A stretch of DNA of 32,232 bases, taken from contig JAKFUF010000067.1 of the NCBI GenBank assembly GCA_021732845.1, positions 1 through 32,232 of the forward strand, given 5' to 3'. The DNA is from Planctomycetaceae bacterium (lineage in GTDB: Bacteria > Planctomycetota > Planctomycetia > Planctomycetales > Planctomycetaceae). The position numbers and the translations under genes are program-made. Numbering within the stretch: the first letter of the stretch is position 1; the number at the start of each line of letters is the position of its first letter. The notes below the pieces were generated by a model, which had not been told where the DNA came from, searched no databases, and was given only the letters and a program-made list of their open reading frames with translations. This document shows positions 3,852 to 25,235 of this stretch, in pieces.

Positions 3852-4298
3852 AACCAATCCGTTCAGGCAATTGACCGGGATGTGGAAGCCCCGGCGCGAC
3901 CCGGCAGGCACGCCGCGCGAAGATGTCTCGGGCTACTCCCAATCATCGGCGGTTCACCGTAATTCCCTGAATTCCGAATATTGTCCAATTTGACATTGCG
4001 GAGTTTTGCCTCCTGAATGCACGCTTCTTGCACGCGGTCCGACTTTGCGACACCCTGCCGCATGAACTGCCTGCATGCAGCTTGAGCGTCCGTCATGACT
4101 GCACGCCAAGCAACCGGCTGTGCGGTCGACCGCTGGCGGTAAGCCATTTGTGGCCAGCGATTAGCGGCCCGCCATCGCTCCCCGGAACTGCCGCCGCTCT
4201 CTGGCATGCGGTGTGCAATCCCTTCCACCTCACCACTCGTCGCCGCTGTCCTTCTGCAGTGGGGCAAAAGTCGCAACTGGATCCTAAGGAGAGAATTC
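3852..4298. other. Divergent intergenic region between cheA and the DUF4142 gene
   Basis: About 450 bp without a convincing gene. It should contain the promoters for the minus-strand chemosensory cluster and for the plus-strand DUF4142 gene. A sigma-54-type site at 4202-4217 is the only promoter recognised. No good -35/-10 pair for cheA was identified by eye. Confidence 0.6.
4202..4217 (+). promoter_or_regulatory. Putative sigma-54 (-24/-12) promoter of the DUF4142 gene
   Basis: The sequence TGGCATGCGGTGTGCA matches the TGGCAYG-N4-YTGCW consensus. The invariant GG and GC have exactly 10 bases between them. The GC ends 83 bases before the ATG at 4299. Three other sites with this architecture occur before genes in this window. 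Confidence 0.6.
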
Positions 4299-5033
4299 AT
4301 GTCGTACCTGTCCAAACACCGCTGGGCATTCGTCGTTCTGGCAGCCGTGAGTTGTGGGTCAATCGCCCTCGTGGCTGAAGACCGGCCGGCAAAATCGCCA
4401 GAGGCTGCCGAAAAGGCCGCGAAGCCCCAGCGCTCGCAGATGGATTCGCACACCGCCGCGTGCCTGATCCTCGACAACCAGAATGAGGTCCTGGCAGCGC
4501 AGCTCGCCGAGCAGAAATCAGAAAACAAAGACGTGCAGGCGTTCGCCAAAATGATGCAGAAAGACCATCAGAAATTCATCGCCGCGCTGGAGAAGTTTGG
4601 TGGGAAAGAGCTGGCATCGCGGCTGAAATCGGATGCAAAAACTGCTGCCGAGCCCGACAAAGGCAAACCGGTGACGGTGGTCGCCCGCAAGCCGATTGCT
4701 GACGAAGAGGCAAAACCGTCCGTGGCCGGCCTGCCGGCGGAAAAGATGCTGATGATCAAGCAGGAGATCGCGGACGAGTGTCTGGCCACCATGCGCAAGG
4801 ACCTGGAAGCCAAGTCTGGCTTTGAGTTTGACGCCTGCTATGTCGGCCTGCAAATTGCCGCCCATATGCACATGATCGACAGCTTGAAGGTGCTGGCCCG
4901 CCACACTTCCGATGATCTGAAGCCGGTACTGGAGCAGGGCCGCGAGACGGCCCAGATGCATCTCGAGGCCGCGAAAAAATTGATGCACGGCCTCGACAAG
5001 GGGCACGCCAGTGCCACGAAGAAGGCTGAGTAG
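4299..5033 (+). CDS. Exported DUF4142 (ferritin-like fold) protein
   Basis: A 244-residue protein with an N-terminal signal sequence (basic start, then hydrophobic WAFVVLAAVSCGSIALV), so it is likely periplasmic or envelope-associated. The body matches the DUF4142 pattern: an ILDNQNEVLAAQLAEQKSENKDVQAF-like helix, the MMQKDHQKF helix, and a late HMHMIDSLKVL...AQMHLEAAKKL pair. A charged insert of about 50 residues (KTAAEPDKGKPVTVVARK) splits the two halves. Family members are predicted four-helix bundles; their biochemical role is not established. The ATG at 4299 is preceded by AAGGAG at good spacing and by a sigma-54-like promoter. An in-frame ATG at 4206 lies inside that promoter and was rejected. 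The gene may be co-transcribed with the stress protein 140 bp downstream. Confidence 0.85.
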   Translation: MSYLSKHRWAFVVLAAVSCGSIALVAEDRPAKSPEAAEKAAKPQRSQMDSHTAACLILDNQNEVLAAQLAEQKSENKDVQAFAKMMQKDHQKFIAALEKFGGKELASRLKSDAKTAAEPDKGKPVTVVARKPIADEEAKPSVAGLPAEKMLMIKQEIADECLATMRKDLEAKSGFEFDACYVGLQIAAHMHMIDSLKVLARHTSDDLKPVLEQGRETAQMHLEAAKKLMHGLDKGHASATKKAE

Positions 5034-5173
5034 GCACTGCTGTGAAACACCGCGTGGCTGGCGACTTCTGGCTGGTCCAAAGCCGGCAGCCACGTCTGTC
5101 TTCAAGATCCGGCCGCGTCGTCTCGCGGCCCGTGGGAGTGGTCAATCTGGGGCATACAAACCAGGGAGTCATC

Positions 5174-5701
5174 ATGTCTGCGTTTCGTACAGTGGCCGTA
5201 GGTGTTTATGACGACCGTGACCAGGTCCGGCGCGTGCTGTTTGAGCTGCGGCAGGCTGGTTTCACCGACAGCCAGATCGGTCTGGTGACACGCGATGCCG
5301 AGGGAACAGTCACTGCGGACAGCGTCGACGAGGCCCCCGATCATCTGGGCGACGGCGCCGTGGCTGGCGCGACGGCAGGTGTCGGGCTGGGTGCGCTGTG
5401 GGGTTGGGCCGTGGTCGCCGGACTCCTGCCGGCCATCGGTCCGGCGATCGCTGGCGGCGCGCTGGTCTCCATTCTGGCGAGCGCGGCGACGGGAGCGGCG
5501 GCCCTCGGGCTGACGGGAGCGCTGCTGGGCATGGGCATCCCGGAGGAGGAAGCCCGCAGTTACGAACAACACTTGCAGGCTGGCAGGACCGTCGTCACCG
5601 TCCAAGCTGGCAACCGGTACGAAGAAGCGTGCGTCATCCTGCAGCGGTTTGACTCGCGGGAGACGCCGGTCGAGTCCACGGAAACTGTTCTGATGTCTTG
5701 A
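5174..5701 (+). CDS. General stress protein, YflT-like N-terminus with glycine-rich core (paralogue 1)
   Basis: A 175-residue protein. The first 45 residues (VAVGVYDDRDQVRRVLFELRQAGF...IGLVTRD) have the pattern of the heat-induced YflT domain. The middle, about 60-125, is a hydrophobic Gly/Ala-rich segment with glycine-zipper spacing that may insert into or lie on a membrane. The end, GMGIPEEEARSYEQHLQAGRTVVTV, is shared almost word for word with the protein at 9852, so the two are paralogues. The ATG at 5174 follows GGGAG. No sigma-54-like site was seen in the 140-bp gap upstream, which fits read-through from the DUF4142 gene. The molecular function is unknown; the stress role is inferred from the family. 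Confidence 0.8.
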   Translation: MSAFRTVAVGVYDDRDQVRRVLFELRQAGFTDSQIGLVTRDAEGTVTADSVDEAPDHLGDGAVAGATAGVGLGALWGWAVVAGLLPAIGPAIAGGALVSILASAATGAAALGLTGALLGMGIPEEEARSYEQHLQAGRTVVTVQAGNRYEEACVILQRFDSRETPVESTETVLMS

Positions 5702-5725
5702 GTGCATCGCCATGGGGACTTCTGG

Positions 5726-6643
5726 ATGCGCAGCAAACTCGACGCGGTCGTTCAGATTCTCCGCACCGCCATCACGGAGTTTCTGAACGACGATTGTCTT
5801 TCCAGCGGGGCGGCGATTGCCTTCTATACGATCTTCTCCTTTCCGCCCCTGGTGATCGTCGTCCTGAATTTCGCCACGGCTGCCGGCTATTCGGTCGACC
5901 AGGTGAACGAAGTGATGGAGACCCAGGTGGGCATCGGGCTCGCCGATGTGAACTCCGGCGCGAAGAGCGAAGCGGATTCATCGCCCTTTGAATTGGGTTC
6001 AACAACCTTGGCGGCCAAACTTGTCGGCTTGGGGATCCTGCTGTTCTCGGCCGGCGGCGTGTTTGGTCAGTTGCAGTTCTCTCTCGACAAGGTTTGGGAA
6101 GTGGCTCCGGACCCCAAGCAGGGCGGGATCACGGCGTTCCTCATGAAGCGGCTGCTGTCGATTGGCATGATTCTTGTCGTGGGATTCCTGCTGCTGGTGT
6201 CACTGCTGCTGACAACCATCATCGAAGAACTGCTGAAGGTCATGCAGGGGACGCCACTAGGGAACCTCGGGGCCGTCTTCGGCGGCCTGGCAACTCAGCT
6301 TGCATCTTTGGTGGTGGCCAGCCTGTTATTTGCCGGCATGTTCAAGGTGCTGCCGGATGCCAAACTGGGCTGGAACGACGTGTGGGTCGGATCAATCTTT
6401 ACCGCCGTGTTATTTGTCGCGGGGAAGACCATCTTTGCCTGGTACATCACGGCCACCTCGGTGACCGCCAATTGGGCGGACTCGGCGGCCTCTGTCGTCG
6501 TGACGCTCACCTGGGTGTACTACTCGTCGCTCCTCGTCCTGTTCGGTGCGGAAGTCACCCAGGCCTGGGTGCAGCAGATGGGCAAGCAGGTTCGCCCTGA
6601 AGAGGGTGCGCAGGCGGTCAAGCTCGTTGAAGTCAAAGCGTAG
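5726..6643 (+). CDS. YihY/BrkB-family inner-membrane protein
   Basis: A 305-residue multi-pass membrane protein. It shows the family's conserved N-terminal region (AITEFLNDDCLSSGAAIAFYTIFSFPPLVIVVL) and about six hydrophobic helices, including KLVGLGILLFSAGGVFGQLQFSLDKVW and the C-terminal VVVTLTWVYYSSLLVLFGAEVTQAW. That last motif is the family's characteristic end. The family was once thought to include RNase BN; the present view is a membrane protein of uncertain, possibly transport-related, function. The ATG at 5726 has GGGG eight bases upstream. A GTG at 5702 in the same frame is an alternative. The gene begins 24 bp after the preceding stress gene and ends 39 bp before the HAD-ATPase gene, so an operon is likely. 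Confidence 0.88.
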   Translation: MRSKLDAVVQILRTAITEFLNDDCLSSGAAIAFYTIFSFPPLVIVVLNFATAAGYSVDQVNEVMETQVGIGLADVNSGAKSEADSSPFELGSTTLAAKLVGLGILLFSAGGVFGQLQFSLDKVWEVAPDPKQGGITAFLMKRLLSIGMILVVGFLLLVSLLLTTIIEELLKVMQGTPLGNLGAVFGGLATQLASLVVASLLFAGMFKVLPDAKLGWNDVWVGSIFTAVLFVAGKTIFAWYITATSVTANWADSAASVVVTLTWVYYSSLLVLFGAEVTQAWVQQMGKQVRPEEGAQAVKLVEVKA

Positions 6644-6682: not shown

Positions 6683-8473
6683 ATGCGGTATCTGGCATTG
6701 GCATGCGATTACGACGGGACTCTGGCCCATGACGGCAAGGTCTCTAAAACGACTTTGGCCGGGCTGGAACGGTTTTTGGCATCAGGTCGAAAACTGATCA
6801 TGGTGACCGGCCGCGAGTTGCCGGACCTGCAACAGACCTTCGACCACTTCGACCTCTTCGAATGGATCGTGGCTGAGAACGGCGCGCTGCTCTACAAGCC
6901 CGCGACGCGCGAGACCTTCCTGCTGGCCGAGCCACCGCCGGCCAGGTTTGCCGAAGTGCTGCGGGAACGCGGCGTCGGGCCGGTCTCGGTCGGCGGAGTC
7001 ATCGTTGCCACATGGGAGCCCCACGAAAACACGGTGCTCGAAGTCATTCGGGACCTCGGATTGGAACTCCAGGTGATTTTCAACAAGGGGGCGGTGATGG
7101 TGCTGCCCGGCAATATCAACAAAGCCACGGGCTTGGCGGCCGCACTGGAACGAATGGGTCTATCAGCGCACAACGTGGTCGGCGTGGGGGACGCGGAGAA
7201 TGACCACGCCTTCCTGACCATGTGTGAGTGTTCGGCGGCCGTGTCCAACGCCATCCCCTCGCTGAAGCAGACGGCCGATTTGGTGTTGGCAGCCGACCAC
7301 GGCGATGGCGTGGTGCTGCTGATCGATGAGATGATTCAGCAGGACTTGCGGGAGCGTCAGCCCGCCCTGATGCGCAGGGACCTGCTGGTCGGGCCAAGGC
7401 GCGACAAGTCTCTGGAACGAATCGCCGCCTACGGCTCCAGCGTGCTGATCGCGGGACCATCGGGTAGTGGCAAATCGACAGTCGCCACGGCGCTCCTCGA
7501 ACGGATTATGGAACAGAAGTATCAGTTCTGCATCATCGATCCTGAAGGTGACTACGAAGGGTCTGAAGGCGCGGTGATGCTGGGCAACCGGGAGCGCGGC
7601 CCCGCGGTCGAGGAGGTCCTGCAGGTGCTCCGTAAGCCGGGCGAAAGTGTCATCGTCAACATGGTGGGACTGCGGATCGCCGACCGGCCCAACTTCTTTC
7701 TGTCGCTACTGCCCCGGTTGCTGGAACTGCGGGCTGCCGTCGGCCGGCCGCACTGGCTGATCATCGACGAAGCCCATCATTTGCTGCCAGCGTCATGGCA
7801 GCCCGCCACACAGGCTCTGCCTCAGGCGATGGGGGGCCTGGTGCTGATTACCGTGCATCCTGAAGAAGTCTCTCCGGCCGTCTTGTCCTTGGTGGACACG
7901 GCCATTGCCGTGGGGACGGAGCCGCACGAGACGTTGGGAGAACTCTGCCGCGTGCTGGGCGAACATGCCCCGGCGGAAGTCACGGATAAGGCGGACGAGG
8001 AGGTGCTCGTCTGGAAGCGGGGGCAGGGTGAGCCACGGCCGGTGCGGCCGGAATTGAGCCAAAGCGAGCGCAAGCGGCATGTCCGCAAGTATGCCGAAGG
8101 TGTGCTTCCGCCGGACAGAAGTTTCTACTTCCGGGGTCCGGAAAGCAAACTCAAGCTGCGGGCCCAGAACCTGATGAACTTCCTGGAACTGGGTGATGGC
8201 GTGGACGATGACACGTGGAACTTTCATCTGCGCGAAGGGGCGTACTCGCGGTGGTTCCTGGAGGCGATCAAGGATCCGGACCTTTCCGTCGAGGTCGCGG
8301 CCATCGAAGAGAACGTGGCTTTGACCGCCGCGGAGAGCCGCGCCGAGGTGCGGGTGGCGGTGGAGAAGCGGTTCACGCTCCCGGCCTCTTCGCGCCTGCC
8401 GATGCCCGGAACCGACGAAGCGCCAAAGTTCGAGCAGGCACCGACCGTCGCCAAGACGAAACGAAGCCGCTGA
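6683..8473 (+). CDS. HAD-family (Cof-type) phosphatase fused to a P-loop ATPase
   Basis: A 596-residue two-part protein. Residues 1-215 form a HAD-IIB hydrolase: motif I DYDGT with nucleophile Asp9 and Asp11, motif II VTGR at 41-44, a lysine near 147, and motif IV GVGDAENDHAF at 167-177. Residues 240-450 form a P-loop ATPase with Walker A GPSGSGKST at 258-266, IIDPEGDYEG at 284-293 (typical of HerA/FtsK-like ATPases) and Walker B WLIIDEAHH at 358-366. The remaining 140 residues contain a dense block (RKYAEGVLPPDRSFYFRGPE..., about 469-540) that I cannot assign. The phosphatase substrate is unknown; family members act on sugar phosphates. It is the last gene of the probable 4299-8473 transcription unit. 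A sequencing artefact is unlikely because the frame is continuous. Confidence 0.85.
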   Translation: MRYLALACDYDGTLAHDGKVSKTTLAGLERFLASGRKLIMVTGRELPDLQQTFDHFDLFEWIVAENGALLYKPATRETFLLAEPPPARFAEVLRERGVGPVSVGGVIVATWEPHENTVLEVIRDLGLELQVIFNKGAVMVLPGNINKATGLAAALERMGLSAHNVVGVGDAENDHAFLTMCECSAAVSNAIPSLKQTADLVLAADHGDGVVLLIDEMIQQDLRERQPALMRRDLLVGPRRDKSLERIAAYGSSVLIAGPSGSGKSTVATALLERIMEQKYQFCIIDPEGDYEGSEGAVMLGNRERGPAVEEVLQVLRKPGESVIVNMVGLRIADRPNFFLSLLPRLLELRAAVGRPHWLIIDEAHHLLPASWQPATQALPQAMGGLVLITVHPEEVSPAVLSLVDTAIAVGTEPHETLGELCRVLGEHAPAEVTDKADEEVLVWKRGQGEPRPVRPELSQSERKRHVRKYAEGVLPPDRSFYFRGPESKLKLRAQNLMNFLELGDGVDDDTWNFHLREGAYSRWFLEAIKDPDLSVEVAAIEENVALTAAESRAEVRVAVEKRFTLPASSRLPMPGTDEAPKFEQAPTVAKTKRSR

Positions 8474-9851: not shown

Positions 9852-10400
9852 ATGGCTGCAGCAACACATTTGACAGTTGTCGGTGTCTTTCAAAGCCGGC
9901 TGGATGCGGACGAGGCGATCGACGAACTGCGCGTCGCTGGTTTCACCCCCAGCCAGATTGGCGTCGTCACCCGCGATGAGCAGGCTTCACGGCTCCCCGC
10001 CAACGTCGATGAGGATATCGCCAATCGCCCCAAAGACTGGGACCGTTCCGAGTCGAACGTCGAAGAGGGTGCCGCGATGGGTGCCGTAGCCGGTGCCGGT
10101 ATCGGCGGCCTCATCGGTCTCGGCATCATCTCGAACCTGATCCCCGGCATCGGGCCGGCGATCTTCGCCGGAACAATGGGTGCGGTGCTCTCCAACGCGC
10201 TGGGCGGGGCGGCTGTCGCCGGCCTCGCCGGTGCGCTGATCGGGATGGGGGTTCCCGAGCACGAAGCCCGCTTCTACGAGAACGAAATCAACAGCGGACG
10301 GACCGTCGTCACGGTGGATCCCGATGGCCGCGTGGACGAAGCCCGCGCCATCCTGCGGTCCCACGGGGCCTTCGAAGCCGGTTCAACGCCGAATCTGTAA
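9852..10400 (+). CDS. General stress protein, YflT-like N-terminus with glycine-rich core (paralogue 3)
   Basis: A 182-residue protein closely related to the one at 5174. The N-terminal YflT-like part reads VVGVFQSRLDADEAIDELRVAGFTPSQIGVVTRD. A glycine-zipper core follows at about 70-135 (AAMGAVAGAGIGGLIGLGI), then the shared ending IGMGVPEHEARFYENEINSGRTVVTV. The ATG at 9852 is preceded by GGAAGG at suitable spacing and by a sigma-54-like promoter. The protein is predicted to be cytoplasmic or membrane-associated because no signal peptide is seen. Function is unknown beyond the stress-family assignment. No clear terminator was seen in the bases after the stop. Confidence 0.8.
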   Translation: MAAATHLTVVGVFQSRLDADEAIDELRVAGFTPSQIGVVTRDEQASRLPANVDEDIANRPKDWDRSESNVEEGAAMGAVAGAGIGGLIGLGIISNLIPGIGPAIFAGTMGAVLSNALGGAAVAGLAGALIGMGVPEHEARFYENEINSGRTVVTVDPDGRVDEARAILRSHGAFEAGSTPNL

Positions 10401-16417: not shown

Positions 16418-18853
16418 GTGCCTTCGTTGAACTGCCTGTTGCCGTTGGAGCTGGAGCTGTTTCTGCTCGGTCTGACGGACGAGGGCCGGTCGCTGGAGAT
16501 CGAGGACCATCTGCAGGCCTGCGGGGAATGCCAGCAGCAGATGACGCGGCTGGCGGCCAAGGATGAGTTGGTCCAGGCCCTCCGTCAGCAGCAGGCCAGC
16601 GACCCTTTTGGCGCCGCGCTCGACGCCTCGTCGGAGCTGGTCCGGCTGCTGGTCCCGCAGTTCAAACGGATTGGCCAGCCGCCGGATGAGACAGTCAGGA
16701 TGACCGGCTCCGTGACCGATGACACCGCGCCGTATGCCAGCCCGCCGTATCCGGCCGGCAGCGCCCCCGCGACAGGAGGCGAAGCGGCGGCACGCATCGG
16801 CAGGTATATCGTCCGGGGAGAACTCGGTCGCGGCGGCATGGGGGCGGTCCTGGATGCGTTTGATCCGCTGTTGAACCGGCCGATCGCCATCAAGGTGCTG
16901 CAGGCCGAGTGGATTGCGGAAAAAGGGATGGCCGAGCAGATGGTCCGCGAGGCCCAGGCGGCCGCCGCCGTCCAGCACGACAACATCGTGCCGATTTACT
17001 CGGTCGAAATGCAGAACGGCCAGCCCTGCATTGTCATGCCGCTGCTGCAGGGGTGTTCTCTGCACCATCGTCTGCTGGGGAACGAAGGACCGCTGCCCCT
17101 GGACGAGTTTCTGCAGATTGCGGGCGACACCTGCCGCGGACTGGCCGCCGCGCATGCGGCGGGTTTGATCCACTGCGATATCAAACCCGGAAACCTGTGG
17201 CTGGAGGCCCTGAATGGACGGGTCAAAATTCTCGACTTCGGCCTGGCCATTGCGCACGGGGACGGGAGCCAGGGCTTCGCGGGAGTTTCCGGTACGCCGG
17301 GCTACCTGGCGCCGGAGCAGGCCACGGGGAGGCCCCTCGACCAGCGGACGGACATTTTCAGCCTCGGCTGCGTGCTGTACTGCATGGCCACGGGGCAGGC
17401 GGCGTTCACGGGCGAAACCCAGATGCGGGCGCTGTGGACCGTGCTGTCCCCGCCGCCAGCCGCGGCCTCCACGGTCAACCCCGGTCTTCCCGAGGAACTC
17501 GGCGGCCTCATCGACCGGATGGTCTCCCGTGAGCCCGCGGACCGTCCCGCGAGTGTCACGGAAGTCCTGGAGGTTCTCGGCGAATTCGATCGCCGCCGGG
17601 CCGAACGGCGCCGGCTCGTGGTTCGCCGGCGGTGGCTCCTGGCGATGTCGGGCGCGGCGCTGCTCAGCGGCGGGGGCGTCGGGGCCTGGGCGATGTTCAT
17701 GGGTCCACGGGCAGCCCGGCCGGTGCCGGTCACGCTGCTGGGAGGCCCTGAGCCACTCGCGGTCAAGCTGCGGCGCGATGGCGTGGAAACCCCGGTGTCC
17801 CTGTTGGGGGAGACCGTCGTGTCCCTGCCGCCGGGGGAGTACTCCCTGCACCTTGTCGAAGACAAGCCAGGCCGGGAGCTGCTGCCGCGGGCGTTCGTTG
17901 TCGAAGAGGACCGCCCCCGGCTGGTCCCGGTCGTGCTCGTGGGCGAAGTGGCGCGGCACCGCGCGCATTCGCGGGCCGTGACTGGCGTCGCGGTGCGCCA
18001 GGAAAGCCCGGCAACAGCAGCGAAGTCACTGGCAGTCTGGTCAACCGGACTCGACCGAAGCCTGGTTGTGTGGGATGGCGCGGCAGCCGACGGGCACCGC
18101 TTCACCGCGCTGCACCACGAAGCCCGTTGTGTGGCCGTTTCCCCGGACGGCAGGCAGGTCGCCACCGGAGGCGGAAACAAGCAGCCTCCGCACGAACTGG
18201 CGATCCGAGTCTGGGACGCGCGGACGCTTGCGGAAATTGAGCCACCCTTTGAGGGACACGGGCGGCTGGTTCTGGGCGTGGCCTGTTCGCCCGACGGCCG
18301 GCATCTGGTGTCTGCCGGCGCCGAGGGCATCTTCGTTTGGGAGATCGCGACCCGCGAATCCTCCGCGCTGCCGGGATCCGACGCCGGGACCGTGCATGCG
18401 GTGGCCTTCTCCCCCGATGGACGGCAACTGCTGTCCGCCGGCGAGTCTGGCGCGGTGGCCCTGTGGGACATGCGGACCCGCACACCACGGCGTTCGCATG
18501 TGGCCTGTGAAGGCACCCTTCGCGCGGTGGCGTTCCTTTCCGATGGATATGCGGCAGCCGGAGACGACGGGATGGTCAGGGCGTGGACCTTGGCGTCGGA
18601 CAAGCCACGGGTGCTGGTAACCCGTCCGCAGCCGGTGGCGGCGCTGGCCGTCTCCCCCGCTGGCGACCTGCTCATCTTTGGCGATGGTGCTGGCATTGTG
18701 GGGGTCTGGTCGGTCAAATCCCAGCAGGTGGTCCACGAGTTCCGCGGCCACCGTGGCGCGGTCACCGCGCTCGCCTGCGTGGGGGATGGCCGGCAGGCCG
18801 TTTCCGGCGGCGCGGATGGAACGGTCCGCCTCTGGCAACTGCCGTATCCGTAA
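16418..18853 (+). CDS. Membrane Ser/Thr kinase with WD40 repeats and zinc-binding N-terminus
   Basis: An 811-residue protein. Residues 1-60 contain H31-x3-C35-x2-C38 (HLQACGEC), a zinc anti-sigma-like motif. The kinase domain is at about 128-390: GRGGMG loop 137-142, Lys159 in IAIKVL, HCDIKPGN at 252-259 (catalytic Asp254), DFG at 273-275, YLAPEQ at 297-302. The usual Arg of HRD is Cys253, so this is a non-RD kinase. One transmembrane helix lies at about 406-428, after a basic stretch (RRRAERRRLVVRRR). The exported part, about 500-811, carries WD40-like repeats (VAVSPDGRQVATGG, VAFSPDGRQLLSAG, TALACVGDGRQAVSGGADGTVRLW). It starts with GTG at 16418 behind GGGAGA. It probably senses envelope signals and controls the upstream ECF factor; this is inferred from context. 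Confidence 0.9.
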   Translation: MPSLNCLLPLELELFLLGLTDEGRSLEIEDHLQACGECQQQMTRLAAKDELVQALRQQQASDPFGAALDASSELVRLLVPQFKRIGQPPDETVRMTGSVTDDTAPYASPPYPAGSAPATGGEAAARIGRYIVRGELGRGGMGAVLDAFDPLLNRPIAIKVLQAEWIAEKGMAEQMVREAQAAAAVQHDNIVPIYSVEMQNGQPCIVMPLLQGCSLHHRLLGNEGPLPLDEFLQIAGDTCRGLAAAHAAGLIHCDIKPGNLWLEALNGRVKILDFGLAIAHGDGSQGFAGVSGTPGYLAPEQATGRPLDQRTDIFSLGCVLYCMATGQAAFTGETQMRALWTVLSPPPAAASTVNPGLPEELGGLIDRMVSREPADRPASVTEVLEVLGEFDRRRAERRRLVVRRRWLLAMSGAALLSGGGVGAWAMFMGPRAARPVPVTLLGGPEPLAVKLRRDGVETPVSLLGETVVSLPPGEYSLHLVEDKPGRELLPRAFVVEEDRPRLVPVVLVGEVARHRAHSRAVTGVAVRQESPATAAKSLAVWSTGLDRSLVVWDGAAADGHRFTALHHEARCVAVSPDGRQVATGGGNKQPPHELAIRVWDARTLAEIEPPFEGHGRLVLGVACSPDGRHLVSAGAEGIFVWEIATRESSALPGSDAGTVHAVAFSPDGRQLLSAGESGAVALWDMRTRTPRRSHVACEGTLRAVAFLSDGYAAAGDDGMVRAWTLASDKPRVLVTRPQPVAALAVSPAGDLLIFGDGAGIVGVWSVKSQQVVHEFRGHRGAVTALACVGDGRQAVSGGADGTVRLWQLPYP

Positions 18854-22901: not shown

Positions 22902-25235
22902 TCAGGCGCTGCCATCCCGGCTGAGGACGAGCAGTGTGATGCATTCCCGCCCCGGCCGGTCGCGGCTGAATTGTTTCGCATCCTCACACAACACCCGACC
23001 GAGAGCAGCGGCCGGGGCGGGTGAGCAACTGATGAATTTCCGCAGGCGCTCCATGCCGTAAAGCTCACATTGTGCATTCATGCCCTCGGACACGCCCTCG
23101 TTCAACAAAACCAGTGTTTCTCCCACTTCCAGATTGATCTCGTAACGTTTGTACGCGTAGTTTTTCACTCCCAGCGGTAGTCCCACATCGTCGTCGGAAG
23201 ACTTGTGCGACACGGTTCCATCAGCCCCGCGCAACACGGGTGCCAGGTGGCCGGCGTTGACGATGGAGAGTGTGTGAGTGGCAGGATCGAGCAACATCGC
23301 TAGGAAGGTGACAAAACTATGACTCGATGCAGTGGTGAGTTCCTGGTTAATTCGAGTCACGACCTCAACCAATGGCTCTCCGGCCGAGATCCCCTCGCGG
23401 AGCAGGGCGGCAACGCGGGCGGCATTCACCAGGGGGGTCAGGGCCGTGCCGCTCGCATCGCCTATGGCGAGGCACACCTTTCCATCCCGGAGCGGAAAGG
23501 CATCATAGAAGTCGCCCCGGATGTTCAACGAGTGGTCGCAAACCGCGAACACTTCATAGCCATTAATCTTGGGAAGGACTCTGGGCAGCAACTCGCGCAG
23601 GGCAGAGGCGGCCATTCGTCCTTCAGTCAGCGAACTGTGGTGCGTGAGGTGGTCTGTCGCGGAGTCCCTGGCAGCTCCCTCTGACATCCGTGGGCGCAGG
23701 ACAATCCTGACCTCGCGCACGGTCGTCATGCTCCGCAGGAACGTCCGGGCGATGCAGCGCACGAGCGTGGCCAGACAGATGTCCTGGGGAAATCCTCCGT
23801 TGCCGGTGCCCAGGAGCGGAATGGCCATGGACGTCACGCTCAGCGTGTCGGCGTGATAGAAGCAACTGGTGAGCAGCTCCGCGAGCACGTCAGGGCTGGG
23901 GAGCTGTATCCGGCGGCAGCCGATGGTCACGGCATGAAAGATGAACCGCGCGGACAGTGCCCCCGCTGTGGTGACAACCGCGCGTCCGGGACGCACCGGT
24001 GCGAAGGCTCGCGCGGCGTAGCCGACCTCACGGCCGGCTGCCGCGAGGATCGCACCGGAGACTCCCCCGCCCATCGACAGTTCTTCATCGTCGGAACTGA
24101 CAAGGGCCTCGACGTTTTGTTCGACCAGATCGCCGGTAAGGATGCGCAGCTTTTGACCGTGGGGAAACTCGTAGACATCGTCCAGGCCGGCGGGGCGCGG
24201 TTCCTGAAAATAGGCAGTTGATCGCGCCTGGTACCGCCGCAGGTAGTCCGCCAGATCCTCGTCATCCGTGTCGTTCCACGGGGACAACGAACTGGCGGAA
24301 GCCTCCAGTTGCCGAAGGAGCGCGGCAAACGACTGGAACCGGTCGGAAGGTGACTTCGCCAGGCAGCGTTCCAGGATCTCGCAGGTCCGTTCCCCGAGCG
24401 GGCCGAACCTGGCCTTGGGCGCGATGAGCGGTTCGGTCTTGTGCTTGAACAGGACCGTGAACGCATTCTTTCCCGTGAAGGGCGGTTCGCCGGTCAGCGC
24501 GTGGTAGAACGTCGCCCCAAAACTGTAGATGTCGGCCCGCGAATCGACCGCATGCGGATCCTCGGCCTGCTCGGGAGCCATGTAAAGCGGCGTCCCCAGA
24601 ACGTCGTTCATGAGTGACGCCTCATCGGAGTTGTCGGGGCTGCGGGCGAGCCCGAAGTCAGCCACGCGCGCCTGGTTCCGGCGGTCGATCAGGATGTTCG
24701 ACGGCTTCAGGTCGCGGTGAATGATCCCTTCGGCCGCGGCCGCCATCATTCCCCGGCAGACCTGGGCCATCCAGGGCAGCACATATTGCTCGCCGATCCG
24801 TCCGCCGAAGTCGCGGAGCATTTGCCGCAGGTCGATCCCGTCCACCCATTCCATGACGATGACCGGGGTGTCGCCGGCGATCAGTTCGAAGTCATGCACG
24901 CGGACGACATGGGGGGACTTGATTTGTGCCAGGAGCCGGGCCTCACGCAGGAACCGGTCGGAAGAGGCACCGGCCTTCAGGATCTTGATGGCGATGTCCA
25001 TTGCGAGCTGGCGATGCCGTCCGCGATACACGGTGCCGAACCCGCCGCTGCCAATCTGTTCCATGACCTCGTATCGGCTGTCGAGATAGTCCGCCGCCTC
25101 CGGAGACAGCCCGTGCGGGGTCGAGCCCGCACTGCCGATGATCGTCGAGGCTTCCCCGGCCGCAGCCGAATTCCCCGGCAGCCGAGCCTTCCGCAGCGGA
25201 CTGCCCTCCCGCATCTCTTGATCGCCGGTCGTCAT
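22902..25235 (-). CDS. Three-part fusion: Ser/Thr kinase, macro domain, SpoIIE-type phosphatase
   Basis: A 777-residue protein without membrane segments. The kinase is at about 55-310: GSGGFG 62-67, Lys84, HRDLKPSN 173-180, DFG 193-195, APEQ at 220-223. A macro domain is at about 360-515: LRILTGDLVEQNVEALVSS, MGGGVSGAILAAAG at 388-401, GRAVVTTAGAL, and LLGTGNGGFP at 474-483. A PP2C/SpoIIE phosphatase is at about 555-772: RGDFYD 573-578, IGDASG 591-596, IVNAGHLAPVL 658-668. The usual NAAN of macro domains is SSDD here, and the usual T/D-D-G near the end of the phosphatase is NEG (712-714), so both activities may be altered. GAGGG precedes the ATG. It converges with the caspase gene. The inferred role is cytoplasmic signalling that joins phosphorylation with ADP-ribose recognition. 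Confidence 0.88.
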   Translation of the reverse strand: MTTGDQEMREGSPLRKARLPGNSAAAGEASTIIGSAGSTPHGLSPEAADYLDSRYEVMEQIGSGGFGTVYRGRHRQLAMDIAIKILKAGASSDRFLREARLLAQIKSPHVVRVHDFELIAGDTPVIVMEWVDGIDLRQMLRDFGGRIGEQYVLPWMAQVCRGMMAAAAEGIIHRDLKPSNILIDRRNQARVADFGLARSPDNSDEASLMNDVLGTPLYMAPEQAEDPHAVDSRADIYSFGATFYHALTGEPPFTGKNAFTVLFKHKTEPLIAPKARFGPLGERTCEILERCLAKSPSDRFQSFAALLRQLEASASSLSPWNDTDDEDLADYLRRYQARSTAYFQEPRPAGLDDVYEFPHGQKLRILTGDLVEQNVEALVSSDDEELSMGGGVSGAILAAAGREVGYAARAFAPVRPGRAVVTTAGALSARFIFHAVTIGCRRIQLPSPDVLAELLTSCFYHADTLSVTSMAIPLLGTGNGGFPQDICLATLVRCIARTFLRSMTTVREVRIVLRPRMSEGAARDSATDHLTHHSSLTEGRMAASALRELLPRVLPKINGYEVFAVCDHSLNIRGDFYDAFPLRDGKVCLAIGDASGTALTPLVNAARVAALLREGISAGEPLVEVVTRINQELTTASSHSFVTFLAMLLDPATHTLSIVNAGHLAPVLRGADGTVSHKSSDDDVGLPLGVKNYAYKRYEINLEVGETLVLLNEGVSEGMNAQCELYGMERLRKFISCSPAPAAALGRVLCEDAKQFSRDRPGRECITLLVLSRDGSA

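Follow-up and report, generated by a model that had tools for sequence, protein, structure and literature searches.

A gene in the 32,232-nucleotide stretch of Planctomycetaceae bacterium DNA analyzed here (referred to below as the window) was found to encode a single chain in which a HAD-IIB phosphatase domain, a HerA-type ATPase core, and a helical C-terminal domain are joined. This three-domain fusion is encoded by a single open reading frame (ORF) of 596 amino acids with an ATG start (positions 6683..8473, plus strand), and the source genome contains one copy of it. The architecture is genuine, conserved, and built from known folds, and no published description of a HAD-IIB/HerA phosphatase fusion was found in the literature on the fusion, DUF5752, HerA-like phosphatases, and trehalose. 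With confidence that falls just short of even, we propose that the protein is a stress sugar-phosphate phosphatase acting on trehalose-6-phosphate (T6P) or a similar solute, that it can stand in for the T6P phosphatase OtsB (PF02358), and that its HerA core is an ATP-control module and not a DNA pump.

The preliminary description had placed the motifs of a HAD phosphatase and of a P-loop ATPase in one open frame, and the Pfam domains and invariant residues agree with that observation. A frameshift or misassembly joining two genes was ruled out: 83 relatives were confirmed in the genome collection and 80 were kept, and 75 of these 80 were full length in a single frame, with an uninterrupted ORF of at least 540 amino acids, 41 to 56% identity, and origins in several phyla. 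In the other five (L067, L068, L075, L080, and L081), the fusion was split across two or more frames; in L067, L080, and L081, the HAD and ATPase parts lay in adjacent or overlapping frames, representing either a natural split or a sequence error. Homologues with the same architecture were therefore found, and the fusion is real and widespread. Its carriers included Pseudomonadota, Acidobacteria, Planctomycetota, Melainabacteria, Nonomuraea (Actinomycetota), Parachlamydiaceae, and Rokuibacteriota, and in public records the relatives were annotated only as “HAD-IIB family hydrolase,” “HAD family hydrolase,” or “HAD hydrolase family protein.” In addition, 13 plasmid records matched, 11 of them with one place spanning at least 80% of the protein, and the plasmids with the fusion included a Synechococcus plasmid and pSymB of S. 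meliloti. A phage origin was rejected, as none of the five matching records in the phage collection covered more than 80% of the protein. Occurrence was patchy in both genome samples. Among 59 related genomes, the source genome included, 20 had a match at an E value of ≤0.001: 8 were strong and full length (at least 51% identity), 2 were distant (approximately 30%), and the others were HAD-only or weak. In a phylum sample of 294 genomes, 102 had some match, mostly to weak HAD or P-loop stretches, and strong long matches (at least 45% identity) were present in 8 genomes, one of them split over two contigs. Phyla were intermixed in the HAD tree, a quick tree with 32 of 79 inner branches open, and this mixing suggests horizontal transfer of the gene. 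The tree rows nearest to the source protein, together with window neighbors of planctomycete type, suggest a host in Planctomycetota.

The HAD-IIB phosphatase domain spans residues 1 to 222 (6683..7348, plus strand) and scored 75.6 bits against TIGR01484 (cut-off, 41.8) and 88.2 bits against Pfam Hydrolase_3 (PF08282; cut-off, 20.9). It contains D9-Y-D11 (6707..6715), the lysine K147 (7121..7123), and D170-A-E-N173-D174 (7190..7204), all on the plus strand, which we take to be HAD motifs I, III, and IV, respectively. Conservation was scored across the fetched loci in 128 distinct HAD domains, limited to those with at least 35% identity over at least 185 residues: D9, K147, D170, N173, and D174 were each present in all 128 and D11 in 127, and position 42 held T in 124 domains and S in the other 4. 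Furthermore, M1, T42, K147, D170, N173, and D174 were invariant across 38 aligned fusions thinned to less than 85% identity. An AlphaFold2 model built on these 38 fusions (mean pLDDT, 89.2) contained the HAD-IIB domain, a stripped HerA-type core, and a helical C-terminal domain. The best fold match of residues 1 to 222 was PH1421 (1wr8; Z, 26.9; rmsd, 2.6; 221 residues aligned), followed by sugar phosphatases, MpgP, TPP, and SPP structures with Z values from 24.6 to 19.6; because all of these match, the fold alone picks no substrate, and the absence of a family from the VIA-align fold lists does not exclude that family. The archaeal HAD-IIB proteins PH1421 and TA0175 (1kyt; Z, 23.8) share the catalytic motifs with the fusion, but they are stand-alone PDB chains of 225 to 231 residues without an ATPase or C-terminal domain. 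OtsB likewise belongs to the HAD class and has a related fold (6upb, Z of 20.5; 6qj6, Z of 19.8), whereas the fusion was not picked up by PF02358 and is joined to an ATPase and a C-terminal domain.

The HerA-type ATPase core, residues 230 to 462 (7370..8068, plus strand), scored 29.8 bits against DUF87/HerA (cut-off, 23.2). Its Walker A motif, GPSGSGKS (residues 258 to 265; 7454..7477), and Walker B motif, WLIIDE (residues 358 to 363; 7754..7771), are followed by a basic linker, RHVRKYAEG (residues 465 to 473; 8075..8101), all three on the plus strand; G258, G263, and K264 of Walker A, D362 and E363 of Walker B, and R465 and G473 of the linker were invariant in the 38 rows. HerA is a hexameric translocase. 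The model of residues 230 to 465 matched HerA 9x1m with a Z of 20.5 (rmsd, 3.0; 224 residues aligned) and HerA 4d2i and 8xau with Z values of 19.8 and 19.4, the core fold and the Walker A and B motifs being common to both proteins. Only the core of HerA aligned, such that approximately 235 residues of the model span approximately 400 of HerA (152 to 553). The alignment starts after the N-terminal part of HerA, and the fusion lacks both the HAS-barrel and the large helical insertion of HerA, its residues before 230 being HAD. In HerA-NurA systems, moreover, the nurA gene lies alongside, whereas neither a NurA-like gene nor a nuclease family was detected among 13 neighbors of the fusion scanned with Pfam. 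The DNA-pump-type ATPase of the preliminary description thus retains its HerA-type core with intact motifs, but a DNA-pump role found no support, given a core-only alignment and no NurA-like gene among the 13 neighbors scanned. Among PADLOC models, the best match to the fusion was mad8 (E value, 3.7e-14; 51 bits; residues 250 to 451), a PADLOC-DB model of 314 positions that does not include a HAD domain. For the ATPase core, mad8 (51 bits) scored higher than Pfam DUF87 (30 bits), and the nearest named relative of this core may be a defense ATPase.

The last 140 residues had been described as belonging to no recognizable family, a view that does not hold for residues ∼474 to 566 (8102..8380, plus strand), which profile searches relate distantly to DUF5752 (PF19027) and to OrfY of Thermoproteus tenax (4cso). 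Pfam matched no family with the C-terminal domain of the source protein itself; DUF5752 was matched weakly by 22 of 26 relatives at an E value of ≤10 (best, 9.2e-6), a profile search of PDB sequences found OrfY (4cso) at an E value of 7.1e-5, and hhalign of the domain against two DUF5752 proteins gave an E value of 2.6e-5 and a probability of 75%. Folded alone, the domain reached a pLDDT of 84, and its top fold match was again 4cso (Z, 10.9; 94 residues aligned; rmsd, 2.1; next match, 5.4), a score to be read with the caution that helical matches with a Z below approximately 13 may reflect a common arrangement of helices. Foldseek also placed 4cso first, at an E value of 0.68. GlgE was discarded as a fold relative, its Z of about 5.2 to 5.4 being too low to use. 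DUF5752 proteins are approximately 208 to 240 amino acids long and look like two repeats, whereas the fusion has a single, weakly matching copy fused to an enzyme; we therefore take the domain as a distant single-copy relative of DUF5752/OrfY and not as a member. The protein ends in a low-confidence tail, residues 567 to 596 (8381..8470, plus strand), with a pLDDT of <50 and mostly gaps in relatives.

DUF5752 itself was present in 2 of the 59 related genomes, both times in a trehalose gene cluster with TreT. The gene order of the first cluster was DUF5752-TreT-OtsB-GT20, GT20 being trehalose-6-phosphate synthase; the cluster is compact (L159:6950-11202), with overlapping or touching genes, and offers a clean setting for DUF5752. 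The second contained genes for a maltokinase-cap protein, an alpha-amylase-type enzyme, DUF5752, TreT, and an alpha-amylase-DUF3459 enzyme, among which we infer TreZ and branching-enzyme roles. DUF5752 and the fusion did not occur together in any of the 59 genomes, DUF5752 had no match in the source genome, and no paper on DUF5752 was found in the literature. In T. tenax, a GT4-family protein activates the synthase in the TPSP-GT complex, according to the accessible portion of the report (PMC3634074); that portion does not name OrfY, which is accordingly not assigned to the trehalose operon of T. tenax.

Forms of the protein without the ATPase were found in the family of genome G038, which comprised 81 genomes, six of them already seen. 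Ten of these genomes had the full fusion, and 16 had the HAD domain (47 to 65% identity) without the ATPase. In one of the 16 (G343), the C-terminal domain lay directly behind the HAD domain (L199:4492-5469, P0002), the ATPase and the RHxRKYAEG linker being cleanly absent. The search for the C-terminal domain gave no match in the other 15, in which contig ends were checked in part, and in the 59-genome sample that domain was restricted to the 10 fusion genomes. A second, weak match was present in G374 (query residues 187 to 309; E value, 8.5e-4). The HAD-only and HAD-plus-C-terminal forms show, by their gene content, that the phosphatase can dispense with the ATPase. Loss of the ATPase appears likelier than gain, because the outermost rows of the HAD tree carry it under a midpoint root. 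The quick tree required at least six changes among the three forms (79 labeled rows out of 82, with L067, L081, and L106 left out); because a single clade of HAD-only rows was not rejected (AU P value, 0.49), no number of ATPase losses is claimed.

The distribution of OtsB suggested a link to trehalose. Five of the 59 genomes had GT20 without OtsB (G028, G038, G043, G051, and G056), and all five carried the HAD domain or the fusion. The family of G038 was tested because four of these five belong to it, that is, it was chosen because the pattern first appeared there. The HAD domain or fusion was present in 9 of its 10 genomes with GT20 and without OtsB, in 4 of 20 with both GT20 and OtsB, and in 13 of 51 with no GT20. 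The Fisher P value was 0.0004, and it was 0.007 (5/6 versus 3/18) once the six previously seen genomes were removed; the genomes are related, and both values are uncorrected for kinship. In G400, the lone miss, GT20 was represented only by two fragments close to the end of a contig. Swaps were also seen inside two genera: in genus g50, G051 had GT20 and HAD and G399 had GT20 and OtsB, and in genus g284, G386 had GT20 and HAD and both G371 and G398 had GT20 and OtsB. These counts, including the swaps within genera, support the trehalose link of the fusion. The trehalose reading is weakened because four genomes (G047, G355, G369, and G405, two of them in genus g282) combined OtsB and GT20 with the HAD domain or fusion, and because the genomes are not independent. 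Twelve GT20 loci of OtsB-less genomes (L187 to L198, including a 4.2-kb contig, L190, and two loci cut at a contig end, L188 and L191) were inspected: no other HAD-motif ORF was seen in 11, and in the twelfth, L187, the fusion itself preceded GT20 by 1.8 kb in the same orientation. In HAD-only genomes, no GT20 gene was seen near the HAD gene. The source genome had neither GT20 nor OtsB (no PF02358 match at an E value of ≤0.001), and 5 of the 10 genomes with the fusion in the G038 family lacked GT20, as did 5 of the 7 other genomes with a strong fusion match in the 59-genome sample, which further weakens the trehalose reading; in such carriers, another synthase would have to supply the substrate.

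In the window, the fusion gene is the last of a tightly packed run of genes on one strand, preceded by genes for a DUF4142 protein (4206..5033; PF13628, 68 bits), a weakly YflT-like protein (5042..5701; PF11181, 25.0 bits, just below the cut-off of 26.2), and a YihY/BrkB membrane protein (5702..6643; PF03631, 141 bits), all on the plus strand. The YihY/BrkB gene lies 39 nt upstream of the fusion and is a possible operon partner, and the other two are possible operon members. We take all three to be general-stress families. A YihY homologue was also found less than 8 kb from the fusion in loci L099 and L131, and another YflT protein is encoded at 9852-10400 of the window. Two further multidomain proteins were seen in the window: a 777-amino-acid protein (22902-25235, minus strand) with a protein kinase, a Macro domain, and a SpoIIE-type phosphatase, by its domain matches a kinase, an ADP-ribose-type reader, and a phosphatase within a single chain, and WD40 repeats joined to a protein kinase (16418-18853, plus strand).

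Among relatives, the fusion on two similar Aminobacter plasmids was divergent from GT4, amylo-alpha-1,6-glucosidase, and trehalose-6-phosphate synthase genes, with no OtsB annotation in the fusion stretch of either plasmid; this synthase without OtsB adjoining the fusion also argues for a trehalose link. On a Caballeronia plasmid, two GT4 genes were followed by the fusion. Other annotated neighborhoods contained Dps, hemerythrin, rubredoxin, and BON proteins (Synechococcus); manganese catalase, flavohemoprotein, and hemerythrin (Paraburkholderia); universal stress, CBS, and phosphoketolase genes (Agrobacterium); and transporter and cold-shock genes (S. meliloti). A Nostoc HAD-only gene lay near glucose-6-phosphate dehydrogenase. 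These mostly mixed stress neighborhoods name no substrate. No strictly conserved gene partner was found when the ORFs of 103 loci were clustered (BLAST, 1e-12, with coverage limits): the four widest clusters consisted of the fusion gene and of ORFs that overlap it, an ABC-type protein came next with 7 lineage groups, and the rest reached at most 5.

A different reading, a possible one that we nevertheless hold to be somewhat doubtful, is that the protein is a broad-range housekeeping or repair phosphatase of the sugar-phosphate or phosphoglycolate type with no trehalose link, its ATPase serving as a scaffold and the OtsB pattern reflecting shared ancestry. The best-scoring curated models include PRK01158 (81 bits) and TIGR01487 (79 bits), both for archaeal phosphoglycolate phosphatase and both below their cut-offs; the nearest folds, PH1421 and TA0175, point the same way, as do the many carriers without GT20 and the mixed stress neighborhoods. 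The complementarity with OtsB, swapped inside two genera, argues against it, as do the link to DUF5752/OrfY and the trehalose-6-phosphate synthase neighbor in Aminobacter.

Two further readings start from the ATPase. In one, the protein would belong to the HerA/FtsK class and act on DNA or RNA as a translocase or helicase, its HAD domain serving as a nucleic-acid phosphatase. Its HerA core fold (Z of approximately 20) and intact Walker motifs fit such a role, but the aligned core is shorter than that of HerA and lacks the N-terminal part and the large insertion, the scanned window neighbors include no nuclease, and the ATPase is missing from the natural HAD-only and HAD-plus-C-terminal forms, all of which render this reading very improbable. 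Equally little credit can be given to anti-phage defense, in which a mad8-type ATPase would act with a HAD domain that, upon infection, either depletes a nucleotide or sugar phosphate or repairs it: the PADLOC match and the patchy distribution across mixed phyla are in keeping with it, but none of ten window neighbors, the nearest ones included, matched a PADLOC model at an E value of ≤0.001, the plasmid neighborhoods are annotated as stress and metabolism genes, and the HAD domain persists without the ATPase. No paper matching MADS/mad8 was found in the literature.

Under the proposed role as a stress sugar-phosphate phosphatase, for which we infer the substrate, ring formation, ATP control, and docking partner, the HAD domain would remove phosphate from T6P or a closely similar phosphorylated compatible solute; a sugar-phosphate role is suggested because the nearest folds of this domain are sugar or sugar-related phosphatases. 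The DUF5752/OrfY-like domain would probably dock the phosphatase to the solute-forming glycosyltransferase or complex, and its trehalose link is drawn from the two trehalose clusters in which DUF5752 sits. The HerA-type core would bind ATP, possibly form a ring, assemble the phosphatase, and switch it with ATP. The pairing of such an ATPase with a small-molecule phosphatase, which had been called odd, is less odd in this context, because both the relative of the C-terminal domain and the OtsB swap suggest a place in sugar-phosphate stress metabolism. HAD-IIB enzymes are often broad, however, which counts against a single assigned substrate. The TPSP-GT complex of T. tenax serves as one precedent for the proposed mechanism. 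Another is Saci_0016 of Sulfolobus acidocaldarius, a HAD enzyme outside the canonical T6P phosphatases that is reported to act on T6P, as proposed for the fusion, and also to accept simple sugar phosphates (PMC7688234). It is likened to the fusion by description, and it differs in being a single 27-kDa monomer with a broader sugar-phosphate range (PMC7688234). An extended version of the proposal, which is speculative and rather unlikely as a whole, is that a ring of HerA cores carries the phosphatases, that ATP binding or hydrolysis, and with it the energy charge, gates the release of trehalose or a similar protectant, that the OrfY-like domain docks the synthase, and that the module spreads horizontally, replaces OtsB, and can shed its motor.

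If the proposed function is correct, many soil and plant-associated bacteria would have a way to trehalose-type solutes that does not involve OtsB, the unnamed DUF5752 family would have a lead to work from, and the fusion would be a case of a HerA-class core reused in metabolism rather than on DNA. The natural motor-less forms, HAD alone and HAD with the C-terminal domain, offer a direct comparison by which the role of the ATPase can be judged.
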